A DNA stretch of 64,000 nt from Vitis vinifera (taxonomy: Eukaryota; Streptophyta; Magnoliopsida; Vitales; Vitaceae). Numbering within the stretch: the stretch's first letter is position 1; the number at the start of each line of letters is the position of its first letter. Positions 566 to 60,172 of this stretch are shown here, one piece after another. A model generated the notes under the pieces. That model did no database searches. It was not told where the DNA came from and saw only the letters and a program-made list of their open reading frames with translations. Location of the stretch: contig NC_081810.1 in NCBI RefSeq assembly GCF_030704535.1, positions 1,922,501 to 1,986,500 on the forward strand, in the 5' to 3' direction. A program made the position numbers and the translations under genes.

Positions 566-3500
566 TCAAATGGAGATACTGTATGGAACTCCCTTTCCTG
601 TCACACCAGCTCCAGAAAATGGCTTCAGAAGCTCATATGGAACCACTCCAGCTCCGTGTCTGTTCTTCAAATTCTTGTCTTCATTCCTAGCATCAATGAT
701 TCCTTCAATTTCTTTCAACCTTCCAGAAAACCGTTCAAATGCTGCCTTTATTAAGGGATCTGCACCCCATGCTGGCTCCAAATGCTCCCCTAGGTATTCC
801 TCATCTGGAGAATGACTTGATAACACATCTAAAACAGTCAAAACTTTTGCTGCTTGAAGCTGTGTAGGCAGGCATGCCAAGAGTTCATTCTCAGGTTTGT
901 GCAAAAACCGGCGCCATCCTTCTTCAGTTGGGTCCTCAGAAGGGAGGTTGGTCCTGGCAATAGTAGGCCTATTGGGGAAGTAACCAGCATAAGCATATTG
1001 TCCAAAGTTGACGGCAGCATGGTGCCCAGACGTTACCCATACCATAGTTGTGACAATCCCAATTAGGTCTTGGGGTGTTTTGAGGTCTGGCCACCATGTT
1101 TCATCTTTCTTGTCCTCATGGCCTCTTGTTCGGATTTCAGTCCACCATGCTTGAAGCTCTGCATCAGACTTCACCATGCTCGCATCCTTGTAGAAGAAAT
1201 TGACATAATCGGTAACCCATTCTTTTATGGCATCCCACAGGAGGAGACCATCATTGGCAAAAGGATAATCTGGGATTGCTAGCTTTAGGCCATGTGGAGA
1301 ACTTGGGTCCTCAACAGCAATTCCCCTGGCATTACCAAAACAAAATTGTTAATTAGCAAGGAGACTCGGTAGGAATTGAATCTGTTTTAGCCCTCTCTTC
1401 CTCACAAATAAACCATTAGTTTATCATCTAGGAAACGGCCAACAATGTAAATCAACTAGTATTAGTACTCTAATGACCAAAAGAGAGCATAATGACAAAA
1501 TCGTTTTAGGGCAACTATGACCAAGAGTGAATTCACCGATTAGTATAAGTACGATATTGCAAGCTTGCCCTCAAAAATTTATATTTGCCATAAGTAGGAT
1601 AACTTGGGGGATTCTGGCTTAATATGTACCTGCTTATTAGGTCTGCTGGCAGTCCTTGTGTATCAAAGCGCCACTGCAGGCCATAGGCAGCAGAGCTGAT
1701 CTCAGTAGAATACTTTCCGGGTGTGAATGCGGACTCAATGATCCCATCAGCATTGATGAGAGCTTCTCGAGCAAGAGCATTGATCTCCATTGTGTACCGG
1801 AAATGAGGGTGTAACAGTCTATAGATTGGGTGCATTGCACTAAGTTGTCGATTCGTTGCAATTATATAAGGTTCTGTTACACAGTGAGTTCTCAACCTGC
1901 AAAAATAAGCAAAGGAGGTCTCATGTTAGCTCACCGACATTCATGAAGCTTAGTCTGCAAAAAACTTCTCTGAAAATGTTTTCCAAAGAGAAGTGGAAAA
2001 AAATGAAGAAATAAATTAAAGAAAAAAAATTGATAAGTTTGTTTTAAGTGCAAATAATTCTCCAGGCATTATTCTGAGAAGAAATGAAAGGCAATGGCAT
2101 TTACCAGTGACTAACAAGCTGGTGATAACCAGCGTCATGAGCAAGGAAATGAGTTTTAGCAAGTTTCCAGAGCCAGGAACCTGTGGCTTCCCAGCTAGGC
2201 GTAAACACTTGCTTCCACTGCGGCTTCCCATCCATGGGTGGTCGGACGAGTTCGATGGCCAGCGGCTTCAATGTGTTATCAGGGCCTAGGAAGAAAAGTG
2301 CCCTTGATCCATACAGCGTTGTCCCTTTGATTTGCCTTACTTCGCTCACGTATGGCAATAAGATGTCATGATAATCTATGATGAACAGCTTCTTTTGTTT
2401 TAGTGCCTGCATTCATTCATGTACTCACTTTTACATAGTTCAACTGGGAGAATGATAAAGAGGAAGAAGAGACAAAGAAGAGAAGTACATACCTCATCAA
2501 CGGTCATGAATCCTTTGATCTCTCGCTCGACTATCTCCGTGGTGATTGCAGATTCAGGGGGACCATAGATCTTAGGATCGAGTGTGCTCTTCAATGGCCA
2601 TTCCTGCGTGATTTAATGCAACTCTTTTGTCATACATGGAAACTGATAAGTTCATTGTAATATACATCAAGCTAGAGTGATTAATATTTAACAATATATG
2701 ATCCTGAAGCAAATTGATCATTTTCATACCTTAACCAATTGTATACTATATGGATTGAGACCGGCAAGAGTCTGGCGTGAGAACTCCTCATCCCTAAACC
2801 AAGAAAATTTGTCCCCTGCAAATGCAAAAACACATGAGATTGAGAGAAGTCTTAAAAAGGGAGTATAGATCTTGATGAGTAAAGGTCTTTTTCTTACTGA
2901 GCAACAGTTGAGGGGTTTCAAATTGCAGGAGACTATCTGTAGAATTAGTGATGGCCCTCACTAGTCTGGGCAGTATATCTTGCAAAACCTTATGCTTTTT
3001 AAGATTAGGAACATTGATTCCTTCATTGTATAACTCGTCTATTTTGGTGAAGAGTGGAAATCCAAGACTAGTGTCTGTAATCACTGACTCTATTGCCGGC
3101 ACCACAGCGTGCAACGCTGAGTATAACGTATTTGTAGAGAATGTTAGCTCCTTCACGTCCGAAAATGCTTCGTCCCTTGGCACATAGACGGTTGAACTCC
3201 TTGTCTCTGCTTTCGGGTCTGCATGTATCGATGGCGGTTGCCCATATGAGTAAATTAAGTTTAAATCAAACAATTCTGAATGTACATATTTTGTTGTCAA
3301 AGTTTAAGTTTAAGTTCTGATTCTCGTACCAATCTTAGACATTGGACGCCCCGTTCTACATCGTCTTGGGTAGGGATACTGCTTGCTACCACCAAGTACC
3401 GGTCGAGTCAGTTCAGGACTGCTGTCTGGATCACCCAGATCATCGTATACATCATAGTCATAGATTCTATCATATGACTTGCGCTCTCCTTGACCATTAC

Positions 3501-6500
3501 CTCGCAAGGTTACAAGCTCTTTTTCTCTTATTTCTTTGAGTCCACTTGGTGTTTCCAATGGTAAGTATGACTACACAAAACACAGATAAGTAGATTAAAT
3601 CCTAAAAAGTACGAAACATCATGGATGAATGAGGTATTGAAACCTCATAATAATCATTTTCATAATACTTTAACTGTCGAATATTTGAAAATCAATTATA
3701 AATATCAAATCTTAAAAATCCGGCTTGTAAATATCAAAAATGATTTAAAAAACTTAACTAGTTTTGTGGTTCAATGAGCAGTGCTGGTTACTTTCGAAAG
3801 CATGGTTATAAGATCATGTTTGGATGTATTAACCGATTTGAGGACTACTTCCATACACTTGTGAGGACTACTTCCATACACTTGTGAGGTATTAGCCATT
3901 AGATTGACTTTTGTATCTTCTTATTCTTCTCATCTATCCAGCTTTTGAAAGCAACCATTACTGCCTGTGGAGCCACACGCCTTGATTTTGTTCCACAGAC
4001 ATATCGCTCTACCTATTGCCTAAGCCTTGACTCCAATATCCGGCTACCTCCACCATATCAACATCGGTGTAGGCAGAAAATGTGTCACACCAATATTTGT
4101 GGCAAATAATAATAATAACTTAGGAGGTATAAGATAAAATTTAATATTTATTGTTTAATTATAATCTAAATTAAATTTAAATTAAATTATATTTAAATTT
4201 ATTAACTTTTACTTATTTTATAAAATTAACTTAAAATTTATTTTATATCATCAAATTGACATATTTATTTTTATAAATTATAATTAGAATAAAAAAAGTT
4301 GAATAACAACCTGAAATAATAATAAAAATTGATAAAATGATTAAGACAAATGGAGGTAAAAAAATAAAATAAAAATATAAACTTAAAATAAGCTAATTAT
4401 TTCTACTTATTATTTAAAATTATTTTTTATTTTAAGTCATATCATTATATTATTTTACTAAACATACTTAATTTAGTTACTGATTTAAAATTAAATTATT
4501 AAATCACTTTAAACTACTAATTTGATTTATCAACACCTATTTAATAAATGATTTGAACTTATTTTTAATTTGAATGGTTGATATTATAATTAAATGATAT
4601 TAAGTTATAATAAATATATATATTAATACAAAAAGAATTAAAAAAAAAAAAAAAAAAGCTTCTTGATTAATTTTTATTCTCCAATTAAAAGTGGCTTTTG
4701 ATATCACATAAAAATAAAAAAAAATAAAAAAGCGCACACACACACACACCAAAAAATGGGACATCAAAAGGACTGATTCATTGTGGCTTGTGGTCCTGAG
4801 GAGACCCTCTGAGAGAAAATTATGGGAAAAATAGTGGTTTTGTAAAGCCGGATCCAATCAAATAAACGGACTCCGACTCATCACTGAAAATGAAAAGAAA
4901 ACGAAGCAAAAGAAGAATCAAAGCTAGATTGAAAAGTAGTAGAAAGGACGAAGCATGTGATAAGTGTCACTTGAGGGCCACCCGATGGTGAAATTAAAGC
5001 CTTGGGACCAGTTTCGCTTTAACCTGTCCTACACAGATTTTTAGGGACCATATGTTCGAACCAACAGAGGTATTCGATGGAATTAAAGAACATTTAAATT
5101 CATGAGAGGTTGTGGAACAGATCCGAAAGAAAAAAAAAAACTGAGATTTTTAAAACAATTCATTAAAATCCTTCAATATTTTCAAAAATAGTTATCTAAA
5201 ACGATTTTGGGTATGTTTGATTGTTGTTTTTGAAAACTATTTTTTGAATATTTAAAAAAAAGAAAAAATTGTATTTGGAAACTGAATTCTGAAAAACAGT
5301 TTTTATTTTCAAAAACAAAAAATATATATTTGATTAAATTAATAAATAAAAAGTTTAGAATAAGTAAAACATAAAATATGTTTTAAAATTATTATTTTTA
5401 ATTCATAAAGTGTTTTCTTCCATTAACTTGATATTATAAATATATAAATAATCTTCGGATGCACAATTTATTTAAATTAAAAAAAATTATTTTATTTTAA
5501 AATTTTTACACCAATTATAATTTTCTTAAATAAATGATGACTTTATTATTATATATAAGTATATTAATTTCAATAATTTAAGAAAGAAGAAAAGGTTTAC
5601 TGATGGGGTGTGATGGTTGGGTGGAACTCACCTTTGTAAAAACATAAAAACAACTAAGAAAACACAAAAAGAAATAAAAGAAAATACGAAAAACAATCTA
5701 TTTTTTGAACAATAAAAATATTTTTTTTATTGTTCTTGAAAAAGTGATTTTTGAGAACACAAAAAACAAAAACACATCCCCTTCTTCAAACAAATTTTTT
5801 ATGTTTTTTGTTTTTAAGAACATAAAACAATTCTTGAAAACAAGAACCAAACCGACCTTTTTATTCTTAAAAAAAAAATAAACTATTTTAAAAAATTTTC
5901 TTTTAATATTGTTTAGTTTATTTCATTTATTTTTTGAGATCGATTTTAAAAAATAAGTATATACACGTATAAAATTATTAAAAATAAAATATTAAATTTA
6001 AAATTTATTTTTAAATTATTAAAAACTATGTTAAAACCATTTCAGGTTTTTAAATAAATTTTTATTTTATAAAATATAAAAAAAAATGTTGTAAAAAATT
6101 ATTTTTCAAAACTCTTTCCGTTTTAATTAATCTGGAGTCGTGTAGCACCATGAAACATAGGGTAAAAAAAATTATCAATGCAAGTAATGAAGATGGTTGA
6201 TGGCTAATTACCTTGTTGGTGAAGAAGACCCTCTTCTGAGGGTCATCAAACTTGGAAGCAACCCATGAACTACAGTTGAATTCAATGGGGCCATTTGGGA
6301 AGCCATCAAGGACTATGTACCTCAGGTACATCTCCTTGTGGTGCTCATTCTGAACAAGAACCGCACCAATCTCCCCAAAATCATCAGGAATCACAAAGTC
6401 TGATTCATATGTTACTTCCCCGTCCTTTTCGGCAGCCCGATGAGCATATGCGCCGATGGGTTTCTTCTCTAAGCCCGTCTCTTCACAAAAATCATTAACG

Positions 6501-7032
6501 AAAATATCAGTACTTAATCAGTGGATTTTACAGTTCTAACAAACAGGCGAAAGAGCATTTGATAGAGAAAAGAATATGTGGAAAAGTGTTTTGTCTTTTC
6601 AGCATTATCAATTGCTCTGAAAATGGAGGTATGAAATCAACACCAGCCTATAGTATAGAATTTAGGTATGGTGAAATACTTACTGGGGTCAACCTCTGAA
6701 CTGACGACCTCCAAGAGGAGTGTTTTACCAAGCCAGTCAGATACATCATCGAGCCCATGGCTCAACCCTATCAGGCTAGACAAGAACCCTCCAACTGTTA
6801 ATTTCACAGTAACAGTGGCCTTAACAGATACGGACTTCCGGGTATCAGTATCACTAGCAACTGCTTTAATGTTGGCAGGGACGTAGCCAACCCTAACATT
6901 CCTGTACTTTTTTCGGAATTCCGGCCTCGGCCTGACGGAAAATGAAGCAGTTCCGGGGCCGGGAATGCACGGTTTGTTCAACAGGAAGAAGGTCGGGGCA
7001 GTGTGTGACTGGTGGACCTGAGTCTTGAACAT
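566..7032 (-). CDS. Chloroplast linoleate 13S-lipoxygenase (LOX2-type), nine exons
   Basis: Dioxygenates linoleic/linolenic acid to the 13-hydroperoxide, feeding jasmonate and green-leaf-volatile synthesis in plastids. Exons on the minus strand: 7032-6684, 6480-6212, 3570-3330, 3218-2898, 2815-2730, 2603-2493, 2406-2105, 1896-1630, 1325-566. All phases close, giving 901 aa, a normal plastid LOX length. The first ~75 residues are a Ser/Arg-rich, transit-peptide-like leader; the PLAT beta-barrel follows (about 76-215), then the catalytic domain. All five iron ligands are visible: His559 and His564 (SHWLRTHC), His751 and Asn755 (HAAVN), and the C-terminal Ile901. The transit peptide and the GVPYSISI end favour a type-2 13-LOX over a cytosolic 9-LOX. 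Intron 2 (3571-6211) is 2.6 kb and carries MITE-like sequence. Regiospecificity is inferred from family resemblance; no defect seen. Confidence 0.95.
3841..3886. repeat. Tandem duplication of a 23-bp unit in lipoxygenase intron 2
   Basis: The unit beginning AGGACTACTTCCATACAC occurs twice back to back (3841-3863 and 3864-3886) with no differences, so the duplication is recent. Confidence 0.85.
4118..4545. repeat. MITE-like AT-rich element, family A copy 1, in lipoxygenase intron 2
   Basis: This segment aligns by eye along its length with 13814-14252: shared blocks include AAAATTTAATATTTA near the start, AACTTAAAATTTATT, and TTATTTAAAATTATTTTT. The right end reads TTTATCAACACC, the inverse of the GGTGTTTGATAAA start of the other copy. 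Short, non-coding and with inverted ends, as in a MITE. The left end is degraded and the target duplication is not clear. Confidence 0.55.
5213..5853. repeat. MITE-like element, family B, in lipoxygenase intron 2
   Basis: Begins TGTTTGATTGTTGTTTTTG and ends with TTCTTGAAAACAAGAACC, which is roughly the inverse of the start; the interior is A/T-rich and non-coding. Similar segments occur at 15834-16143, 29606-29998 and 41763-42012. Ends are approximate. Confidence 0.5.
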
Positions 7033-17707: not shown

Positions 17708-17829
17708 TTTGGTAGCTGAGAAAATAGGCGAAACAGGAAACAAATAGTTGACAAAACAGAAAAACAGAAACCCAAATTTGTGTTGTTATTGTCGGCAATC
17801 AATCAGAATTTCAGGAGTAGCTCTTTGAA

Positions 17830-20133
17830 ATGAAAAGATGCTACTCCACCTTCAAAAAACCGTTAAATTCAAACCAGCTACAGCTCTTTTCACTTGAGTC
17901 CTGCAAATCAATGAACCAAATCAAACAAACCCATGCGCATTTGATCACCACAGGGCTCATCCTACACCCGATCACAGCAAACAAACTCCTCAAAGTGTTG
18001 ATAGCTTCGAGCTTTGGCTCTCTCTCTTATGCCCACCAATTGTTTGATCAAATTCCTAAACCCGATGTCTTTATTTACAACACCATGATCAAGGCTCATG
18101 CAGTTATACCCACTTCTTCGCATAATTCCATGAGAATATTCCTATCCATGGTCCGGGTTTCGGGCTTTTTGCCCAATCGATACACGTTTGTTTTTGTTTT
18201 CAAGGCGTGTGGTAATGGATTGGGGGTTTTGGAGGGGGAACAAATTCGGGTTCACGCCATTAAAATTGGATTGGAGAGCAATTTATTCGTTACCAATGCG
18301 ATGATAAGAATGTATGCGAATTGGGGCCTGGTTGATGAGGCTAGAAGGGTGTTTGATTGGAGCTTGGACCAGGATTTATACTCTTGGAATATTATGATTG
18401 GTGGGTATGTTGGGTCGGGTGAAATTGGTCGAGCTAAGGAAATGTTTGATGAAATGAGTGAACGGGATGTGGTGTCATGGACTACTATAATTGCCGGTTA
18501 TGTTCAGGTATAACACTGGAACCTGGTTTTACCTTTCATTCATTCACTGCCTGAATTGTGTCTCTTTTTCTCTTTGGCGAATGCTACACAAGTTGGCTTT
18601 CCATTTTTTAGGTTATGCGGGAATTTCTTTTCACCATGCCTATTGTTGTGTTACTGATTTTAACCATGCTTTTGATGCATCAACAGAAAGAGCAACGCTA
18701 TTCACTTCGAAAATACTCTGTTTGGCTTCTATAAATGCACATGGTGGTTAAATATCTATGATTTCGAATAAAATTTTATAGCTCAATAAGTGTGTCAAAG
18801 AAGCAAACCAAAGAGCCTCTTTGGTAAAAATCTCATTTTTGTAAAAGGAAATGAGCAGTTGTTGAAGTTTCATAACATGGAATATAGTTTCCATTCAACA
18901 ATGGAGAACATTTTTTGACAAAACTTTTACCTTTAGGTAGGTTGTTTTAAGGAGGCTCTGGATCTCTTCCATGAGATGCTGCAAACAGGTCCCCCACCAA
19001 ATGAATTTACCTTGGCAAGTGCCCTTGCGGCCTGTGCTAATTTAGTGGCATTGGATCAAGGAAGGTGGATACATGTTTACATTGACAAGAGTGAGATCAA
19101 GATGAATGAGCGATTGCTTGCTAGTCTCCTAGACATGTATGCAAAGTGTGGAGAGATTGACTTTGCTGCAAAAGTTTTCCATGATGAATATGGTCTGAAA
19201 CTCAAGGTTTGGCCTTGGAATGCCATGATTGGTGGATATGCTATGCATGGGAAATCCAAAGAAGCAATTGATCTTTTTGAACAAATGAAGGTTGAGAAGG
19301 TTTCTCCTAACAAAGTCACATTTGTTGCATTATTGAATGCTTGCAGCCATGGAAAATTGGTTGAGGAGGGAAGAGGTTACTTTAAATCGATGGCAAGTTC
19401 TTATGGGATTGAGCCAGAAATAGAGCATTACGGGTGTATGGTGGATCTACTTGGGCGTTCTGGGCTCTTGAAAGAGGCAGAGGAGACTGTATTCAATATG
19501 CCAATGGCTCCTGATGCTACTATATGGGGGGCACTACTCGGTGCTTGTAGGATTCACAAAGATATCGAGAGGGGACAAAGAATAGGAAAAATCATTAAAG
19601 AATTGGATTCTGACCATATTGGTTGTCATGTTCTACTGGCTAATTTGTATTCTGCATCTGGGCAATGGGATGAAGCAAAGGCTGTGAGACAGAAAATTGA
19701 AGTTAGTGGTAGAAAGAAAACCCCAGGTTGTAGCTCCATTGAGTTGAATGGAGTGTTCCATCAGTTCCTCGTTGGAGATCGGTCTCACCCCCAAACTAAG
19801 CAGCTCTATTTGTTCTTGGATGAGATGACTACTAAGTTAAAGAATGCTGGTTATGTTCCTGAATTTGGAGAGGTGTTGCTTGACATTGATGATGAGGAAG
19901 ATAAGGAGACGGCACTATCAAAGCACAGTGAGAAGTTAGCTATTGCTTTTGGGTTGATCAATACACCACCTGGAACCGCAATACGCATAGTGAAGAACTT
20001 GAGAGTCTGTGCAGACTGCCATGAAGCAACAAAGTTCATCTCCAAGGTCTATAAACGGGAAATAATTGTCAGAGACAGGATTAGGTATCACCACTTCAAA
20101 GATGGATTCTGTTCTTGTAAAGATTACTGGTGA
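17830..20133 (+). CDS. DYW-class pentatricopeptide repeat protein
   Basis: An RNA-binding organelle editing factor: PPR repeats read the transcript and the DYW domain is a cytidine-deaminase-like unit acting in C-to-U editing. Exons 17830-18507 and 18937-20133, joined at phase 0 (GGTTATGTTCAG, then GTAGGTTGTTTT), give 624 aa; the first exon would otherwise hit a stop two codons into the intron. PPR repeats run from about residue 30 to 440 (VFIYNTMIKAH, DLYSWNIMIGGYV, DVVSWTTIIAGY, VWPWNAMIGGYAMHG), then E/E+ motifs and a full DYW domain. The deaminase signature is present: HSE at 556-558 and CADC at 584-587, ending in DYW at 622-624. The N-terminus (MKRCYSTFKK) could be a mitochondrial presequence. 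An AATAAA lies at 20370-20375. Target site unknown; similar to the At3g62890/At5g66520 type from memory. Confidence 0.92.
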
Positions 20134-43996: not shown

Positions 43997-44310
43997 GTTT
44001 TTGCTCAATGTGACCTGAAGCTTTCTGAGAAAAGCTTTTAGCCTCGGAATTTGAACCATTCTAGCTCAAAAGAACTTGAGTTTCTTGGTCATTGACTGTC
44101 CAGTTGAGTTCTTGTTTGGGAAATTTAGTTTCCATACCACTCGAAAACCCTTAGATTTTCCTGTTTCAGGGCATTTGTGAAGGCCAATGTCATATTGGGA
44201 GTAACAAAAGCTCTGTTTGTTCTAGTTCTTATTTCAAACTTTCTAGATTTTGAAAGTCATTGGCTGCTTCTTCCTGGTTTTCACTTTCCTGGGTGAGTGA
44301 AAACGACAAA

Positions 44311-46635
44311 ATGCAGAAGCCTCCACCTTCGGTCGAATTTGCTCTGAAGGAGACAAAGCCCCAACTTGGCGGGGGCAGTGTGATTGGGGACAAGCTCACA
44401 TGTGCCTATGACCTAGTTGAGCAAATGCACTATCTTTATGTCCGGGTCGTTAAAGCCAAGGATTTACCCCCAAAAGATGTAACTGGCAGTTGTGATCCTT
44501 ATATAGAAGTGAAACTCGGGAACTATAAGGGGGTTACCAAGCATTTTGAGAAGAAGACGAACCCTGTATGGAATCAGGTTTTTGCTTTCTCAAAAGATCG
44601 GCTTCAAGCTTCAGTTCTTGAAGTTGTGGTGAAAGATAAGGATTTTGTGAAAGATGATTTCATGGGTAAGGTTAGTTTCGATCTCCATGAAGTCCCAAGA
44701 CGTGTGCCACCGGATAGCCCATTGGCTCCACAGTGGTATAGGCTGGAGGATAGGAAGGGGGAGAAGGCTAAGGGAGAGCTCATGTTGGCTGTCTGGATGG
44801 GAACTCAAGCAGATGAGGCTTTTCCAGATGCCTGGCATTCAGATGCAGCAACAGTCAGCATTGAAAACATTACCCACATTCGATCCAAGGTATACCTTTC
44901 CCCCAAGCTTTGGTATCTTCGGGTCAATATCATCGAAGCCCAGGACTTGGTGCCTAGTGACAAAAGTAGGTACCCTGAAGTTTTTGTGAAGGGCACCTTA
45001 GGAAATCAGGCTTTGAGAACCAGAACATCTCAAATCAAGAGTATTAACCCAATGTGGAATGAAGACTTGATTTTTGTAGCTGCTGATCCATTTGAGGAGC
45101 CTTTGGTTTTGACTGTGGAAGATAGAGTGGCATCTAATAAAGATGAAGTCTTGGGTAAGTGTGTGATTGCTTTACAGAATGTACAGAGGAGGTTGGACCA
45201 TAAGCCCATTAATTGGAGGTGGTACAATCTTGAAAAGCATGTGCTTGTGGATGGGGAACTGAAGAAGGAAACCAAATTTGCTAGTAGGCTTTGTATGAGG
45301 ATCTGTTTGGAAGGTGGGTATCATGTCTTCGATGAATCTACACAGTATAGTAGTGATTTTAGGCCAACGGCAAAGCCATTGTGGAAGCCTAGCATTGGGA
45401 TTCTGGAAGTGGGGATTCTAAGCGCTCAAGGACTGGCTCAGATGAAGACGAAAGATGGGAGGGGAACAACGGATGCTTACTGTGTTGCTAAATATGGGCG
45501 GAAATGGGTTAGGACAAGGACAATCATAGATAACTTCAACCCAAAATGGAATGAGCAGTACATTTTTGAGGTCTTTGATCCATGTACTGTTATTACCTTA
45601 GGGGTTTTCGACAATTGTCACTTACATGGGGGCGATAAAACTGGAGGGACAAAGGATCTGATAATCGGTAAGGTCAGAATCCGGCTGTCTATTCTTGAGT
45701 CTGAGCGGGTTTACACACACTCATATCCTCTTATAGTGCTGCAATCTAAAGGGGTGAAGAAGATGGGTGAAATACAGTTAGCTGTGAGATTCACATGTTC
45801 AACTTTAGTTAACATGTTGTATCTTTATTCACAGCCACTGCTGCCGAAAATGCACTATATTCATCCACTGTCTGTGATTCAGGTTGATAGTTTAAGGCAC
45901 CAGGCGACTCAGCTTCTCTCAGTGAGACTGGGCAGGGCTGAGCCACCCCTGAGGAAGGAGGTGGTGGGGTATATGCTGGATGTCGATTCGCATATGTGGA
46001 GTATGAGGAGGAGTAAAGCTAATTTCTTCAGAATCATGGGGGTTATAGGTGGGCTGATTGCAGTTGGAAAATGGTTCAACAATATCTGCAATTGGAAGAA
46101 CCCTCTTACGACCATCCTCATTCACATCCTCTTTGTGATACTGGTCCTTTTTCCTGAGCTCATACTTCCAACGATTCTGCTCTACCTCTTTTTTATTGCT
46201 CTCTGGAACTTCCGACGGAGGCCAAGGCACCCTCCTCACATGGATATCCAACTGTCTCATGCTCATGCCGCCCATCCTGATGAATTAGACGAAGAGTTTG
46301 ATACATTCCCAACTTCAAAACCATCGGATCTTGTTAGGATGAGGTATGATCGGCTGAGGAGCATAGCAGGGAGGATTCAGACTGTGGCTGGCGACATGGC
46401 AACTCAAGGGGAGAGGTTTCAGTCTCTTCTGAATTGGAGAGACCCGAGAACTACAACTCTGTTTGCAGGCGCTTGTCTGATTGGTGCCATAGTGCTCTAT
46501 GTTACACCATTTCAAGTTTTGGCCCTTCTTGCAGGGTTTTATATACTAAGGCATCCCAGGTTTCGCCAAAAGCTTCCTTTTACTCCACTCAACTTCTTTA
46601 GGAGATTGCCTTCAAGAGCTGACAGTATGTTATAA
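44311..46635 (+). CDS. Multiple C2 domain and transmembrane region protein (MCTP/FTIP family)
   Basis: An ER-anchored tether that binds plasma-membrane lipids through C2 domains, typically at plasmodesmata; family members such as FTIP1, QUIRKY and MCTP3/4 move or regulate signalling proteins. The intronless frame encodes 774 aa from the first in-frame ATG (44311, A at -3), the short form typical of MCTP3/4. Three C2 domains start near residues 40 (YLYVRVVKAKDLP), 200 (WYLRVNIIEAQDLVP) and 362 (IGILEVGILSAQGL). The first keeps the acidic loop residues (SCDPY, VKDKD). The C-terminal PRT_C region has membrane segments at about 605-640 and 713-745 and the usual NFFRRLPSRADSML end. An AATAAA lies at 46711-46716. 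The same frame extends upstream only through non-ATG codons. The specific partner cannot be read from sequence. Confidence 0.95.
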   Translation: MQKPPPSVEFALKETKPQLGGGSVIGDKLTCAYDLVEQMHYLYVRVVKAKDLPPKDVTGSCDPYIEVKLGNYKGVTKHFEKKTNPVWNQVFAFSKDRLQASVLEVVVKDKDFVKDDFMGKVSFDLHEVPRRVPPDSPLAPQWYRLEDRKGEKAKGELMLAVWMGTQADEAFPDAWHSDAATVSIENITHIRSKVYLSPKLWYLRVNIIEAQDLVPSDKSRYPEVFVKGTLGNQALRTRTSQIKSINPMWNEDLIFVAADPFEEPLVLTVEDRVASNKDEVLGKCVIALQNVQRRLDHKPINWRWYNLEKHVLVDGELKKETKFASRLCMRICLEGGYHVFDESTQYSSDFRPTAKPLWKPSIGILEVGILSAQGLAQMKTKDGRGTTDAYCVAKYGRKWVRTRTIIDNFNPKWNEQYIFEVFDPCTVITLGVFDNCHLHGGDKTGGTKDLIIGKVRIRLSILESERVYTHSYPLIVLQSKGVKKMGEIQLAVRFTCSTLVNMLYLYSQPLLPKMHYIHPLSVIQVDSLRHQATQLLSVRLGRAEPPLRKEVVGYMLDVDSHMWSMRRSKANFFRIMGVIGGLIAVGKWFNNICNWKNPLTTILIHILFVILVLFPELILPTILLYLFFIALWNFRRRPRHPPHMDIQLSHAHAAHPDELDEEFDTFPTSKPSDLVRMRYDRLRSIAGRIQTVAGDMATQGERFQSLLNWRDPRTTTLFAGACLIGAIVLYVTPFQVLALLAGFYILRHPRFRQKLPFTPLNFFRRLPSRADSML

Positions 46636-52447: not shown

Positions 52448-55400
52448 ATGGACTCGAGAAAATCAATAGAAGATCAATTCTCCAAGCTACATCCATCCCT
52501 GCCTGTGAGCACAAGAATTGGGATAGTGGGAGGTGGTCCAAGTGGCTTGTCAGCTGCTTATGCACTCGCTAAGCTTGGTTACAGTAATGTAACCGTGTTG
52601 GAGAAGTATCAAACTGTTGGGGGCATGTGTGAATCAGCAGAGATTGAAGGTACAAATTGATTATGAATATACTTTCTCTCTAGTTTTCTATGCCATCTAC
52701 TCGAGCTACATGTATACCATACTTTCCTTGCAGGAAATATATATGATCTGGGTGGCCAAGTTCTTGCTGCAAATAGTGCCCCTGTTATCTTTCACTGGGC
52801 AAAAGAAATTGGGTCAGAACTAGAAGAAATGGACTCCCACAAACTCACCCTTATTGATAGTTCTACAGGGAAGCATAAGGACATAAAAGTTGCAGATGAT
52901 TATGTATCTGTAATCTCACTGACTTTGGAACTCCAGGTCAGTTTCTAGTATATTACATAGAGTGGTTGGCTTATTCTAAAGCTTAGAATGAGTTTATTGT
53001 ATTCGTTTTTTTTTTTTTTTTTTCACAGGATAAGGCAAAGGATTCAGGTCGAATTGGGGTCCATGCTGTAAGTGAAATCGCTTCAGATTTGACTCCTGAG
53101 TTTCTTGAGGCTCGTGGATTTAAATCTGTTCCCAAGTCTGTGGCTTGTGGATACACTGCTTCTGGGTATGGGTTTGTCCAAGACATGCCTTATGCTTACA
53201 TTCATGAGTTCACCCGGACTTCCATGGCTGGAAAAATTCGACGTTTTAAAGGTGGATACATGAACTTCTGGAAGAAGCTCAGTGAAATGCTGCCGATAGA
53301 AGTTCGTTGCAACACTGAAGTATTGGCAGTCAGACGCAGCTCTGCTGGCGTTAGTGTTGATGTGAAAAATTCTAATGGAGAAGTCGAAGTTATAGAGTTT
53401 GATGAGATCATCATCTCTGGATCCTTTCCTTTCAAGAATGGAAAAACTTACAGAGCACCCCCTTCAAGTTCAGCAGGTTTCTAGTTCATTAGTTTCACAG
53501 TGTTCTCCTATTTTTCTTTTGTCCTCTTCCTTTTAGATTGACATTTTTATCTGGAAATCTTCTCTGCAGAACCTGAGACTGGGGTAATGGATATGAATGA
53601 GCTTGAAAAGAAGTTATTCAGTAAAGTACAAACAATTGATTACTATACAACCGTTTTGAAGATTAAAGGGCTGGAGCATATCCCAGTGGGATTCTATTAT
53701 TTTGAGGAATTCATGGACGATCCTGCAACTATTGGACATCCAGTTGCAATGCAGAGATTCTACAACAACACTGATGTTTTCTTGTTCTGGTCTTATGGCA
53801 ATTCTGTTGATATTAAGGGACCAACTGTTACTGAGCTCGCAATCAACACTGCTAAAAATATGGGAGGTGAAATTGAGGAGGTGGTTTTACAACGAAGATT
53901 CAAGTATTTTCCTCACATCAGCAGTCAAGGTAGTATATGCAGCAATTCACTTCTGCACAAGTTAACCCTGCCTGCTGAAGGGGACTAATTCTTTATATTT
54001 GAACACAGATATGAAGGAAGGATTTTATGAGAAAGTGGAATCTGAACTTCAAGGCATGAGGAACACTTACTATGTAGGTGGCCTTATGGCATTTGAGCTC
54101 ACAGAAAGAAACGCATCCTATGCCGTGGCTCTAGTCTGCAAGCACTTTGCAAATGACACTCCTTCACCAACATTTCCATATGTTAAGGTAATTTGTCATT
54201 ATGGATAACTGATCAATGGATAAGTATAACAAATGATGTTATGAGATGTGTTTTAGAATGAATTACTTAATCAAAGCATGTGTTTCTGCAGAGGTTGTTT
54301 CCATTGCAATCAGATGGGTGGGGTGGGAATCCCAAAATATTAGATGAATTCCCAGGAGTGAAGTTCCCCGATATTGCTTCCCTTGATGGCTATTTGAAGC
54401 ACTGGGGGACTCATGAAGTCATCCAAAATAAAACACTCTATACCTGGATTAATGAAGAAGGGGTAGTGGTGAGCCAGAGGACTTACAGAGAACTTCATGC
54501 AAATGCTTCTTGCATTGCTCATAACCTCTTGTTAAACCAGAAACCATTGTTCAAGCCTGGTGACAGGGTTCTCCTGGTCTACATTCCAGGTCTGGATTTC
54601 ATTGACGCCTTCTTTGGGTGCCTAAGGGCAAAACTCTTACCAGTTCCAGTTCTTCCTCCGGATCCACTGCAAAGAGGTGGACAGGCACTTCTGAAGATTG
54701 AAAATATTGCCAAATCATGCAATGCATTGGCCATTCTATCGACCATTAGGTATCATGCAGGTGTCTGTGCAGGTTCTGTGAAGAGTTTGATCTCATTTAC
54801 AGGAAAAAATGGGAAAAACTCAGCTCGCTGGCCTAATCTTCCATGGTTACATACAGATTCTTGGATCAAGTATTCCAGAAACTTGCTTCAGGAAGATATT
54901 GCTGATCAATCTGAACCACAGCCAGATGATCTTTGTTTTCTGCAGTTCACCTCAGGGTCCACTGGTGATGCTAAAGGAGTGATGATAACTCATGGTGGGC
55001 TTATTCATAATGTGAAGTTGATGCGGAGGAGATACAAGAGCACCTCAAAGACAGTACTCGTGAGCTGGCTTCCTCAATACCATGACATGGGGCTGATTGG
55101 AGGACTTTTCTCTGCACTAGTTAGTGGTGGATCTGCAGTTTTATTTTCTCCAATGTCCTTCATCAAGAACCCCCTCTTATGGCTTCAGACCATGAGCAAG
55201 TTCCAGGCCACTCACAGCGCTGGCCCCAACTTTGCTTTTGAACTTGTGGTTCGAAGATTGGAGTCAGGCAAGGATACAGTTCACAATTATAATCTCTCTT
55301 CCATGATTTTCCTCATGGTTGCTGCAGAACCAGTGAGGCAGAATACACTGAAAAGATTTGTGAAGCTTACCAGCCCCTTTGGCCTTTGTGAAGAGGTATT

Positions 55401-58400
55401 GGCTCCTGGTTATGGCTTGGCAGAAAATTGTGTGTTTGTAAGTTGTGCATATGGAGAAGGGAAGCCCATCTTGGTAGATTGGCAGGAAAGAGTTTGTTGT
55501 GGTTATGTGGATACAGAGAATGCCGATGTTGACATCAGAGTAGTTGATCCCGAGACTGGTGAAGAGCAAGAGGAAGTTGGAAAGGAAGGAGAGATCTGGA
55601 TTAGTAGTCCAAGTGCTGGAGTTGGGTACTGGGGCAGGGAAGAACTAAGTGGGAAAACTTTCAGAAATGAGCTTCAGAATCACCCTGGTAGGAGATACAC
55701 TAGAACTGGAGATTTGGGACGAATCATTGACGGGAAATTGTTCATAACTGGAAGGATCAAGGATCTTATTATTGTAGCTGGAAGAAACATTTATGCAGCA
55801 GATGTAGAAAAGACTGTTGAGAGCTCATCAGAACTTCTTCGCCCAGGGTGCTGTGCTGTAATTGGTGTTCCAGAGGAAATCTTATCACAAAAGGGGATTT
55901 CATTGCCGGATCATTCTGATCAGGTTGGCTTGGTCGTGATTGCAGAGGTCAGAGATGGTAAACATGTTGGTAAAGATGTTATTGAACAAATTCAAGCACA
56001 TGTTGCAGAAGAACATGGGGTTACTGTTGCTTCCATCAAGCTGATCAAACCCAAAACCATCAGTAAAACCACTTCAGGGAAAATAAAGAGGTTTGATTGC
56101 ATCAGACAGTTCTCTGATGGAACACTGAGTTTAGTTCCGGAGCCTATATTGTCAAAAAAAGTATTGCATCGGTCTTTCACAACAGGAACATGTAGGGAGG
56201 GAAATACACCTCGACCTGAGCTCAATAAATATCCTCTAACAAATCCTAGGTTGAGTAAAGAAGATATTGTTGAGTTCCTGAAGGGTTTGGTTTCTGAGCA
56301 GACAGGAATTCCTATAAAGAACATCTTTGCCTCTGAGAGCCTATCCTCTTATGGGATTGATTCAATTGGAGTAGTGAGAGCAGCTCAAAAACTTTCAGAC
56401 TTCCTTGGAGTTCCAGTTGGGGCAGTTGATATGTTCACAGCAACCTGCATCGCAGACTTGGCAAATTTCTCAGAGAATCTTGTAAGGAAGTCTCACCATC
56501 AATACATGACCGCTCCATCCTATGTTCCAGAACCTGAGACTGACTTGTCTGAGTTGGTGATGGAAATTGCACCATCTCACAAATTGGGCATTTGGTTTTT
56601 CCAACTTCTGGCCCTCATCTACATTTCTGTGTTGCTGATCATTCCTGCATATCTATCGGTTTCTGCTTTTATAAGTCTGCTCTCTACCTGCTGCAACCTT
56701 ATAGATGGAACTTCTTGGTTGGATTATTTGATTTCTTTGGCTTTTGCTCCACTTGCATGGCTACTTTGCATATTCTCCACCTGCATATGTATTGCCTACT
56801 TGGGGAATTCATTCCTTCAACCGAACTATGCCCTGACCCCAGAAATTTCTATCTGGTCAAAGGATTTTGTTAAGTGGTGGGGACTTTACAAGGTCCAAGA
56901 AGTTGCTTCAAAAGTTCTAGCAGTGCATTTGAGAGGAACAGTGTTCCTGAAATGCTGGTTTGAGATGCTAGGAGCCAGAATTGGATCGTCTGTTTTGCTT
57001 GATACCATTGACATCACAGACCCATCTCTGGTTTCAATTGGGGATGGAGCTGTTATTGCAGAAGGAGCACTGATCCAAAGCCATGAGGTGAAAAATGGAA
57101 TCTTGAGTTTCCTACCAATCAGAATTGGACAAAATTGTTCTGTTGGTCCTTATGCTCTGATCCAGAAAGGAAGTGTTTTGGCAGAAGGAGCTGAAGTACA
57201 GGCCTCACAAAAGAGTGAAGGAGGGACATCTGTATTCCAATCTAACAAGGCTAATAATGTTCCAAAGGTAAGAGCTCTCCAGATTTTCATTTACATCTTA
57301 GCATTGTCAGCTAGAAATCTTCTTTAGCTATTATGTTTCTTTATGGTTAAGTACTTCAACCACTTGTCAGCACATCATGATTCCATTACTTCATTAGATT
57401 CTATAAGGGATTTTCTTTGCCAGTTGATTCAATTTTGGCTGCCTTTTCATTGCTTACAGTAATCCTTTTACTTCAGGGTTCAGTGCTTCCAAAAGATTCC
57501 AGAAATGCTCAGATTGAGGCCATTTACCACTTCTTGGGAATTTACATGGTTGGTTTCCTCAGCTCTCTCGCAGCAGCTCTCTTCTACTTCCTCTACCTTT
57601 GGCTGTCTAGAAGTCCCCCATCCTTTCAACACTTTACTTTTCTTTGCATCTCTGGAGCCTTTCACTGGTTTCCCTTCACCATTATTGCATATACTACCAT
57701 GTTTTCAAGTGCCTCCTTGAGCCCACCTTACTTTGCCATCTCAGTTGCTGTTGCTTATCTAGCTCATGGCTTGATACTTAGCTTTCTCACCTGCACCATG
57801 ACACGCTTCCTTGCTAGAAAACCCGATACAAAGCAGAGCCACATGAAAACCTGGCTCAGACACCGAATTATGATTGCCTGCCATCTTAGATTTGCCAAAC
57901 TCCTTTCTGGAACAGAAGCCCTCTGCATTTACTTGCGGCTTTTGGGTGCAAAAATTGGCAGTCATTGCTCCATCAGAGCCATCAACCCTGTTTCAGAACC
58001 AGAATTGATTTCAATTGGTGCTGGTGTCCATATGGGTGACTTCAGCCGAATCATTCCTGGTTTCTACTCATCCAGTGGTTTTACTTGTGGGCAAATTAAG
58101 GTCGAGGATAATTCGGTAGTTGGGAGTCAAAGCTTAGTCCTCCCTGGCTCTGTCCTTCAAAAAGATGTCATTCTTGGTGCACTTTCAGTTGCTCCAATGA
58201 ATTCAGTTCTCCAAAGGGGTGGTGTTTATATTGGCTCTCAAACCCCAGTCATGATCAAGAACACACTGCATGCTTTGGATCAGAGAATAGAGGAGATGGA
58301 TGTGAAATATAAGAGAATAGTGGGAAACCTTGCTGCAAATTTGGCTGTTACAACGATGAAGGTTAAATCAAGATATTTCCATCGAATTGGTGTAGGTGGG

Positions 58401-60068
58401 AAGGGAATCTTAAAGATTTATGACAATATTAAAGGGTTTCCAGATCACAAGATCTTCCAGCCAGGAAAAAGCTACCCTGTCCTAATCCGGCACAGCAATA
58501 GCTTGGCTGCTGATGATGATGCAAGGATTGATGCGCGTGGTGCAGCATTGAGAATACTGCCAGATGAACCTGGCAGTGACTCTCCACTCCTTGACCTGAC
58601 ATTGAAAACGGGCAATGCCTTTTATGCCCGCACAATTGCTGATTTTGCAACATGGCTTGTGTGTGGGCTTGCTGCAAGGGAGGAGCATGTGAAGCGGATT
58701 CCACGAGTGCGTGATGCTGTGTGGGCTTCCCTGAGGCGAGCAGACTCATTTGCTGAGCTGCATTACTACTCAAACATTTGCAGGCTCTTTCGGTTCAAGG
58801 ATGGACAGGAAATGTATGTGAAGCTCAAGTTAAGGCCTTATGATGAAAAGTTCAGTGAGGATTCCGGTAAGATCGAACCAATTGGGATCCTCCCACCAGA
58901 AACAGGTGCAATTCCAAGGGATGATACCGACACACGCCCATTGCTCTTCCTTGCTGAAGATTTCCAGCAACGTGTGAATTCTGCTGGTGGGGTTCGCTAT
59001 GTTTTCCAGATGCAATTCCAGCCAGTTCCAGGTGATGAAGCCACCTGTGACAGTGCCCTTGACTGCACCAAACCGTGGGACGAGAATGAATTCCCACATA
59101 TCGATGTTGGGGAAATAATTGTTGATCAGATGCTTACCAGAGAAGAATCTGAGCAGCTGGAGTTTAATCCATTTCTACAGTGCCATGAAGTGGATGTCAT
59201 CCGGGCTTCATCATCTTCCCAGAGTGCTTCAATTGACCATGGCCGTTCATTGATATATGAGATTTGCCAGCATTTAAGAAACAGGGAACCACTCCCCGAA
59301 GCCTGGAGGATCTTCCTAGAGCAATCTGATTTTAAAGTAGACCTTTCTGGCTGTCCCATGGCAGCAGCATTGCAGAAAAAAGATGTCCAAAATGTGACCC
59401 TCTCAAGGACTTGGTACCAGACCTTATGGGTTATTTTTGCTCAACCATTGCTGCAAACGGTTTTGCCTTATTTCATCATGGGGCTAGTAGTCTTTGCTCC
59501 TCTAAACTGGGTCTTTTACTGGAAGAACACCAAGAAACTCCCACTTCACTGGTTGCTTCCTTTCTTTTGGCTATCTTCAGGGACTTTGGCTGCCTTGGTT
59601 TGCATAGTGGCCAAATGGGGTTTGGTCGGAAAGAAAAAAGAAGGCGAAACTGCACTGATTTGGAGTAGAAGTGTCTTCATGGACACTATATGGCAAGCCT
59701 TTAGGACACTGGTAGGGGAGTATTTCATGGAAATGATAACTGGGTCTTTTTTGTTTGCTCTGTGGATGAGGCTCATGGGATCGAATATTGAGCTGAATGA
59801 AGGGGCTTATGTGGATAGCATGGGAGCCGTGTTGAATCCTGAGATGGTAGAGATTGAGAGAGGTGGATGTGTGGGAAGAGAAGCTCTTCTGTTTGGGCAC
59901 ATATATGAAGGTGAAGGTGGGAAAGTGAAGTTTGGGAAGATCAGCATTGGGGAAGGTGGTTTTGTAGGGAGTAGAGCTGTGGTCATGCCTGGGGTGAGAG
60001 TGGAGACTGGAGGCAGCCTCAGTGATCTCTCCCTTGCCATGAAGGGAGAAATTGTGAAGCCTAGGTAA
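52448..60068 (+). CDS. 2319-aa multidomain enzyme: FAD isomerase-like, acyl-AMP ligase-like, carrier, membrane, catalase-like
   Basis: Seven exons: 52448-52649, 52734-52936, 53029-53476, 53570-53929, 54009-54187, 54292-57267, 57477-60068; all phases close. An in-frame TAG directly precedes the ATG. Residues 1-464 are an FAD amine-oxidase-fold domain (GIVGGGPSGL at 24-33) resembling bacterial polyunsaturated fatty-acid isomerase. About 480-1075 is an adenylation domain of fatty acyl-AMP ligase type: FTSGSTGDAKG (~683), SWLPQYHDMG (~725), GYGLAENC (~838), RTGDLG (~934), catalytic-type Lys in KTTSGKIKR (~1056). An acyl-carrier domain follows with the phosphopantetheine Ser in GIDSIG (~1152). Then membrane segments (1231-1300), beta-helix repeats (1357-1434), more membrane segments (1475-1566), beta-helix (1613-1696), a catalase-like segment (~1755-2080), membrane segments (2105-2173) and beta-helix to the end. 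Substrate and product unknown; probably ER or another membrane, lipid-related. Confidence 0.85.
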
Positions 60069-60166: not shown

Positions 60167-60172
60167 AATAAA
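60167..60172 (+). terminator. Candidate poly(A) signal of the multidomain enzyme gene
   Basis: AATAAA about 100 nt after the stop codon; AATAAG at 60130-60135 is a weaker alternative. Confidence 0.45.

Follow-up and report, generated by a model that had tools for sequence, protein, structure and literature searches.

Gene model and locus

The 64,000-nucleotide stretch of the Vitis vinifera genome analysed here (contig NC_081810.1 of assembly GCF_030704535.1, positions 1,922,501 to 1,986,500 of the forward strand; hereafter the window, numbered from its first letter) holds a seven-exon gene whose product combines five kinds of module on one chain of 2319 residues: a flavodomain related to the Propionibacterium acnes isomerase (PAI), a fatty acyl-AMP ligase (FAAL), a carrier protein, a heme domain related to allene oxide synthase (AOS), and a membrane module of the type found in the poly-amino-acid synthetases Pls and PosA. 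The single-chain exon model of a preliminary description of the window was rebuilt and reproduced, with GT..AG borders at every intron, and the modules proposed there were recovered in domain searches with E-values far from chance.

52448..60068, + strand: whole gene, seven exons, 2319 residues (rebuilt exon model)
52448-52649, 52734-52936, 53029-53476, 53570-53929, 54009-54187, 54292-57267, 57477-60068, + strand: exons 1-7
60167..60172, + strand: AATAAA, resembling a poly(A) signal, 3' of the gene

An in-frame TAG lies immediately 5' of the ATG. Exons 1-5 encode 464 residues, of which 19-451 align to a single structure (PDB code 2b9w), which supports the splice choices for these exons. The open frame of exon 6 contains no Met upstream of the FAAL P-loop (the first Met codon is at 54982), so the FAAL cannot begin as a separate gene within this exon. 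Alternative in-frame acceptors for exon 7 exist at 57408, 57513 and 57519; as judged by eye, the best pyrimidine tract is at 57477. The FAAL, the carrier, the first membrane pair and the first beta-helix repeat (C1) share one open frame of 1018 codons, and the second repeat (C2), the AOS-like domain and the third repeat (C3) share another of 895 codons.

With the exon-7 protein alone as query, only this locus matched genome-wide; the runner-up match was exon 6 of the same gene, and the best candidates scored in the 495.6-Mb, 21-contig assembly include no second copy. The TIGR02353 profile gave three matches at the locus and four weak ones elsewhere in the genome. Bacterial contamination was rejected because the gene has introns and the same window holds PPR-DYW, C2/PRT_C and lipoxygenase-domain genes.

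PAI-like, FAAL and carrier modules

52505..54154, + strand: PAI-like FAD domain, residues 20-453, exons 1-5 (2b9w, E 9.7e-26 over residues 19-451; PF01593, 1.7e-16)
54337..56169, + strand: FAAL domain, residues about 480-1090 (best structure 7r7e, E 2.7e-81)
56275..56469, + strand: carrier protein domain, residues 1126-1190 (PF00550, 8.1e-11)
56362..56364, + strand: codon of Ser1155 in a GIDS motif, the predicted phosphopantetheine site (role by family knowledge)

The PAI-like, FAAL and AOS-like parts each match a fatty-acid enzyme family nearly end to end. Structure 2b9w bears the PDB name "putative aminooxidase", and we take it to be the linoleate isomerase PAI of P. acnes. In addition to the nearly full-length match, the plant domain has the FAD motif and is identical at 37 of the 41 columns conserved at 85% in a set of 16 rows; the residues that presumably contact the substrate in PAI are not conserved in this set. 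The carrier has a DS-type phosphopantetheine site at Ser1155. These matches confirm the isomerase-like part, the FAAL and the carrier of the preliminary description.

Among NCBIfam models, all scoring under their curated whole-protein cut-offs, the fatty-acid--AMP ligase model PRK05850 gives 306 bits on the FAAL domain, compared with 139.5 for amino-acid adenylation (TIGR01733) and 138 for the CoA ligase PRK08314; PRK07768, a model named CoA ligase, scores 261 bits. The adenylation motifs compared, in a set including 19 other FAALs, are retained. DIP2 proteins consist of a DMAP1-binding domain and two FAAL-like domains, whereas the plant chain gives one AMP-binding match and no DMAP1 match. 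The C-terminal piece matches PF23024, "DIP2-like", at 4.8e-8, as bacterial FAALs also do.

A Pls/PosA-type membrane module with an inserted heme domain

56578..56820, + strand: hydrophobic pair 1, membrane segments 1-2 (hydropathy)
56629..57201, + strand: TIGR02353 repeat 1, C1 (E 9.8e-22)
57519..57803, + strand: hydrophobic pair 2, membrane segments 3-4, separated by an additional weak stretch (hydropathy)
57702..58259, + strand: TIGR02353 repeat 2, C2 (E 3.8e-13)
58245..59417, + strand: insert relative to bacterial Pls/PosA, residues 1713-2103, containing the AOS-like domain (alignment columns with gaps in 6 or more of 8 bacterial rows)
58329..59294, + strand: AOS-like heme domain, residues 1741-2062, boundaries estimated (1u5u, E 4.6e-30)
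58377..58382, + strand: Phe1757-His1758, equivalent to T66-H67 of coral AOS (cAOS) (alignment)
58605..58607, + strand: Lys1833, equivalent to cAOS N137 (alignment)
59256..59258, + strand: Tyr2050, the expected proximal heme ligand, equivalent to cAOS Y353 (alignment)
59424..59627, + strand: hydrophobic pair 3, membrane segments 5-6 (hydropathy)
59451..60065, + strand: TIGR02353 repeat 3, C3 (E 4.9e-17)
59898..59900, + strand: His2264 of C3, conserved in Pls/PosA rows, candidate catalytic residue (alignment with eight Pls/PosA proteins)

Downstream of the carrier, three membrane pairs alternate with three beta-helix repeats in the layout of the Pls-PosA terminal module. The pairs are assigned by hydropathy only, in a scan that also flagged two stretches within the FAAL domain. 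The TIGR02353-type membrane beta-helix module named in the preliminary description is thus present, as three matches of 84, 56 and 69 bits, each below the curated cut-off of 423 bits; the match falls in pieces because an intron and the insert interrupt it. C3 retains His2264, Glu2267, Lys2274 and the MKGE sequence at 2311-2314, all of which are kept in the Pls/PosA rows. According to the sections of the source papers that we draw on, the C-terminal modules of PosA and Pls form amide bonds and, in models, fold into packed left-handed beta-helices as acyltransferases do (PMC10522769, PMC4668381); Pls needs all three of its tandem domains (PMC4668381).

Alignment with the eight bacterial Pls/PosA proteins places the insert after C2 and ahead of membrane segment 5, in three pieces that adjoin one another. 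The domain that it holds had been described as catalase-like. A heme domain is indeed present, inserted in the membrane beta-helix module, but its identity as a catalase is rejected: the match to coral AOS covers residues 57-361 of that chain of 374 (E 4.6e-30), whereas the best catalase structure reaches E 3.6e-3, and the distal Asn is replaced by Lys. The Pfam Catalase model matches the domain at 9.5e-9, which explains the older label.

The plant domain has equivalents of cAOS R64, H67, R102, R349, Y353 and R360, but the distal Thr66 and Asn137 of the AOS type are not kept and are replaced by Phe1757 and Lys1833. Residue roles follow the consulted parts of PMC5617202, according to which N137 may support substrate binding rather than catalysis. 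Across 28 AOS-type rows, position 137 is Asn in 21; the exceptions are Lys in the plant, Thr in the bacterial sequences G366, G1010 and G1012, Leu in G513, and Ser in cyanobacterial G110 and G039. Position 66 is Thr or Ser in 22 of the 28 and Phe in four, all of them linked to a FAAL (the plant, G366, G1010 and G1012), while G513 and G349 are gapped both here and in the distal His column. At the proximal Tyr position, 16 rows have Tyr, 10 a gap and two Ile. The five FAAL-linked rows (the plant, G366, G1010, G1012 and G513) all have Tyr and an equivalent of Arg349; four have the distal His, and none the distal Asn. These counts are not independent, because several rows are near-copies (G319/G422 and NGR234/L013 by the tree, G457/G349 by motifs).

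Two further observations concern AOS-like domains elsewhere. A bacterial subfamily gapped at the proximal Tyr column keeps the Arg, the distal His and the Asn (L015, L016, L017, L019, L020, G320, G422, G319, G524 and G1001); within it, L017, L019 and G320 adjoin lipoxygenase genes. On pNGR234a (L001, 4856-6951), a frame annotated as catalase overlaps a second frame encoding an AOS-like domain, next to genes for a diheme cytochrome c peroxidase and a patatin-like phospholipase; in the related locus L013, the catalase match and the AOS part lie in a single frame.

Bacterial relatives

One-chain relatives come from the phylum of Plesiocystis (Myxococcota, from the label of locus L018). G366 encodes a protein of 1826 residues with FAAL (30-580), AOS (611-922), PAI (959-1369) and carrier (1383-1447) parts, followed by a PF01553 acyltransferase. 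G1010 reads AOS-PAI-carrier-hydrolase-thioesterase on a contig cut at both ends, and G1012 and G513 hold FAAL-AOS frames that run off their contigs, so that G366 is the only complete copy of the four. Their AOS parts were found by BLAST with the plant protein and are not reported by the Pfam Catalase model. On the opposite strand, about 1.2 kb beyond the G366 gene, is a gene for a fatty-acid desaturase. These one-chain relatives (among them FAAL-AOS-PAI-carrier-acyltransferase and AOS-PAI-carrier-hydrolase-thioesterase) are new here; in a literature search limited to open-licence papers, no description of the bacterial fusions was found.

With plant residues 1105-2319 as query, matches were obtained in 8 of 292 genomes from the phylum of an Oscillatoria metagenome-assembled genome (MAG), 10 of 282 from the phylum of Plesiocystis and 18 of 398 from that of a Moraxellaceae MAG; an AOS query matched one of 346 genomes from the phylum of an Acidimicrobiales MAG. 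Two of the 11 AOS matches listed for the Plesiocystis phylum lie in FAAL frames (G366 and G513). An order-level search matched 4 of 144 genomes and added G1012 and G1010, and a family-level search around G513, with matches in 2 of 22 genomes, gave no further fusion. Most genome loci were fetched with about 1.5 kb on each side; in all fetched loci taken together, AOS stands alone in 33 and is accompanied by FAAL or PAI only in G366, G513, G1010 and G1012.

An AOS profile scan of a genome-contig collection gave 11 loci, and in all 11 the other plant modules are absent within the DNA fetched. Pfam scans of one or two frames in each of 11 bacterial AOS loci show lipoxygenase in five of them, fused to AOS in L014 and G110 and as a neighbouring gene in L017, L019 and G320, an association that points to lipid hydroperoxide metabolism. 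The plant C-terminal 1215 residues gave five pattern matches in the genome-contig collection, and a scan of a viral-contig collection gave two, none of them related. Across nine genomes with AOS loci, TIGR02353 matched weakly in eight and never above its cut-off.

Phylogenetic analysis

The FAAL tree groups the plant with G366, G1012 and G513 (100/99, starred), against 12 and again against 16 plasmid FAALs, and a grouping of the plant with five cyanobacterial FAALs has a p-AU of 0.006. In the PAI tree of 16 rows, nine of them from the same phylum as G366 and with no other module in the DNA fetched, the plant joins G366, G1010 and G513 (93/93), and its grouping with P. acnes PAI is disfavoured (p-AU 0.021). 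PAI-like genes accompanied by none of the other modules in the DNA fetched are seen in L103-L108 and L110-L112, from the phylum of G366. The AOS tree was built from 26 rows, G349 and G457 being dropped from the 28, with positions 66, 67 and 137 masked. The five FAAL-linked rows fall on one side of a branch (89/92, not starred), nested in a starred 99/97 set with the cyanobacterial G110 and G039. The domains of G110 (L073, 6628-9096) and G039 (L036) are the cyanobacterial AOS-type domains nearest the FAAL-linked group, and that of G110 is fused to lipoxygenase.

The proposal of an acquisition from bacteria is upheld as far as kinship goes, in all three trees; direction and donor lie beyond what the trees show, because the plant row is long and of odd composition in the PAI and FAAL trees, the FAAL outgroups are plasmid records, and the other FAALs of the same bacterial genomes were left out.

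Proposed mechanism and alternative explanations

Our judgement leans, by a small degree, towards an assembly line for fatty-acyl chains, carried on a single membrane-bound polypeptide and bacterial in ancestry, in which the Pls-type module would pass the acyl group to an acceptor. Each reaction of the scheme is one that we infer. The FAAL would convert a free fatty acid to acyl-AMP and load it on the adjacent carrier at Ser1155. This step is strongly indicated and well supported by sequence: since an intact FAAL and a carrier share one chain, loading could proceed without CoA. The PAI-like flavodomain, judging moderately from its family, may shift double bonds of the acyl chain before or after loading. 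The heme domain might act on the same chain, perhaps as a hydroperoxide or conjugated product; the indications are weak here, and the altered distal pocket argues against both catalase and standard AOS chemistry. Relatives of the PAI and AOS types use polyunsaturated chains and lipid hydroperoxides as substrates, according to the parts of PMC5617202 and PMC2885616 consulted and in part to family knowledge. Finally, the Pls-type module would take the acyl group off the carrier and pass it to an acceptor at the membrane, an amine or a hydroxyl; the candidate catalyst is His2264 of C3. Acyl transfer is proposed because PosA and Pls make amide bonds and the bacterial kin carry an acyltransferase or a thioesterase after the carrier; by this analogy the chain probably ends in acyl transfer, and off-loading of this kind is a reading added here to the preliminary one. 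The latter is partly supported, the peroxide chemistry that it proposed not being established for an AOS-like domain with an altered distal pocket.

Several observations weigh against the assembly line and its bacterial kinship. The AOS and PAI groupings of the plant with the bacterial fusions are of moderate strength, the plant row is a long branch of odd composition in the PAI and FAAL trees, and an AOS grouping of the plant with G110 and G039 is not rejected (p-AU 0.059). The PAI-carrier part of G513, counted as FAAL-linked, sits close to the start of a different contig from the one that holds FAAL-AOS. The YGLAE-VVDPE loop of the plant FAAL, the presumed site of the FAAL-specific insertion, is short, at 38 residues compared with 37-59 in the 19 other FAALs. 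The plant matches 42 of the 103 columns conserved in at least seven of the eight Pls/PosA rows and is gapped at seven, where 42 may be low because the carrier stretch of the alignment looks, by eye, off register. The bacterial DNA fetched includes 25 loci with a Pls-type match; none of these contains a clear FAAL, and four show weak partial matches of 50-69 bits. On this sample, in which many loci have flanks of about 1.5 kb, the plant is thus alone in showing a Pls-type module together with a FAAL. Moreover, G513 is gapped at the distal His, so some members may lack a catalytic heme site.

This last point leads to an alternative that we consider unlikely but of real weight, in which the FAAL-carrier core works, the heme domain is dead or a structural lipid-binding element, and what is made is an acyl conjugate, either simple or isomerised. 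It would account for the absence of the distal Asn and of Thr/Ser at position 66 in all five FAAL-linked rows (Phe in four, a gap in G513); retention of the Tyr ligand and Arg349 equivalents in all five, and of the distal His in four, speaks against it. Asn mutants of cAOS, moreover, reportedly change the rate and not the chemistry. A regulatory, non-synthetic lipid protein, as possible for the eukaryotic DIP2 FAAL-like proteins, is improbable. The failure of the genome search to find a second copy of the exon-7 part fits such a role, and the consulted sections of PMC8460268 propose PKS/NRPS-independent roles for eukaryotic FAAL-like proteins, but the carrier, flavin and heme modules are not DIP2 parts and the adenylation motifs are retained.

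The TIGR02353 repeats with their three hydrophobic pairs could also be read as those of a Pls/PosA-like enzyme that adenylates an amino acid and makes poly-amino acids or lipo-amino acids. We reject an amino-acid polymer synthetase and regard this reading in general as quite improbable: by scores (306 versus 139.5 bits) and by tree the adenylation domain is FAAL-type, not the amino-acid adenylation domain of Pls/PosA, and FAALs in fusion with AOS and PAI are its close kin. It is very improbable that two or more separate genes have been read as one. The model does rest on genomic sequence, with alternative exon 7 acceptors, but exon 6 has no Met before the FAAL P-loop, the modules share long open frames, and the bacterial kin are fused.

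To return to the assembly line, a fuller version of it seems to us tenable, if somewhat doubtful. Plants would have inherited a bacterial thiotemplated lipid line, in which a carrier-loaded fatty acid is isomerised, processed while tethered by a non-canonical heme domain and released as an acyl conjugate by a Pls-type beta-helix transferase; embedding of the heme domain in the transferase would couple the final oxidation to release, and the bacterial relatives would be an undescribed family with exchangeable release modules. To our knowledge, lipid pathways that begin with a FAAL and proceed on a carrier are not known from plants. Such a gene would point to a plant lipid yet to be discovered and made independently of the CoA pool; it could be a signal or a barrier compound, oxylipin-like or an acyl conjugate.

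Neighbouring genes

On the minus strand, pieces of a lipoxygenase gene lie at 569-6517 (PF00305 in 569-1348 and 2797-3303, a PLAT domain in 6065-6517), about 46 kb from the gene described here. A substrate link to the AOS-like domain is tempting, but PPR and C2-domain genes intervene: pieces of a PPR protein with a DYW deaminase domain at 17821-20130 (+ strand), and an MCTP-like protein with three C2 domains and PRT_C at 44254-46632 (+ strand).

Comparison with known systems

The preliminary description knew of no described plant pathway for such a protein. The architecture is already in print, as a plant HemY-FAAL-catalase protein that is the same by description (Patil et al. 2021, eLife, PMC8460268) and whose function is stated there to be unknown. 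The flanking parts, named HemY and catalase in that paper, are closest here to PAI and AOS, and the sections consulted make no mention of the Pls-type module, the heme-pocket change or the bacterial fusion kin. Among the matches listed in the literature search, PMC8460268 is the only plant description; a FAAL review (PMC11837247) mentions plants, and the words "catalase" and "isomerase" are absent from its main text as retrieved. The fungal protein TmpL (PMC2766074), compared by description only and from part of the source, likewise combines AMP-binding, six membrane segments and a flavin domain in one eukaryotic protein, but has no thiolation domain and carries its FAD/NAD(P) domain at the C-terminus.

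As for the single modules, P. acnes isomerase 2b9w matches the plant PAI part over nearly its full length but is a free-standing enzyme. Coral AOS-lipoxygenase and the bacterial AOS-lipoxygenase fusions share the heme domain by sequence, the Tyr ligand and the distal His with the plant chain, which in contrast has no lipoxygenase and has Phe for T66 and Lys for N137. In the Pls/PosA synthetases, too, three membrane pairs and three beta-helix repeats come after a carrier, and the His, Glu, Lys and MKGE of C3 are likewise present; the plant protein differs in having a FAAL in place of amino-acid adenylation, a heme domain between C2 and segment 5, and an added PAI domain.

Of the Myxococcota-phylum proteins, G366 has FAAL, AOS, PAI and carrier on one chain as in the plant, parts of the set occur in G1010, G1012 and G513, the proteins group with the plant in the trees, and three of the four have the Phe-His distal signature. 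They differ in their order, FAAL-AOS-PAI-carrier, and in their ends, a PF01553 acyltransferase in G366 and a hydrolase-thioesterase in G1010, neither of which is TIGR02353. These fusions suggest which modules cooperate, and they suggest that the mode of product release is set by the last module.

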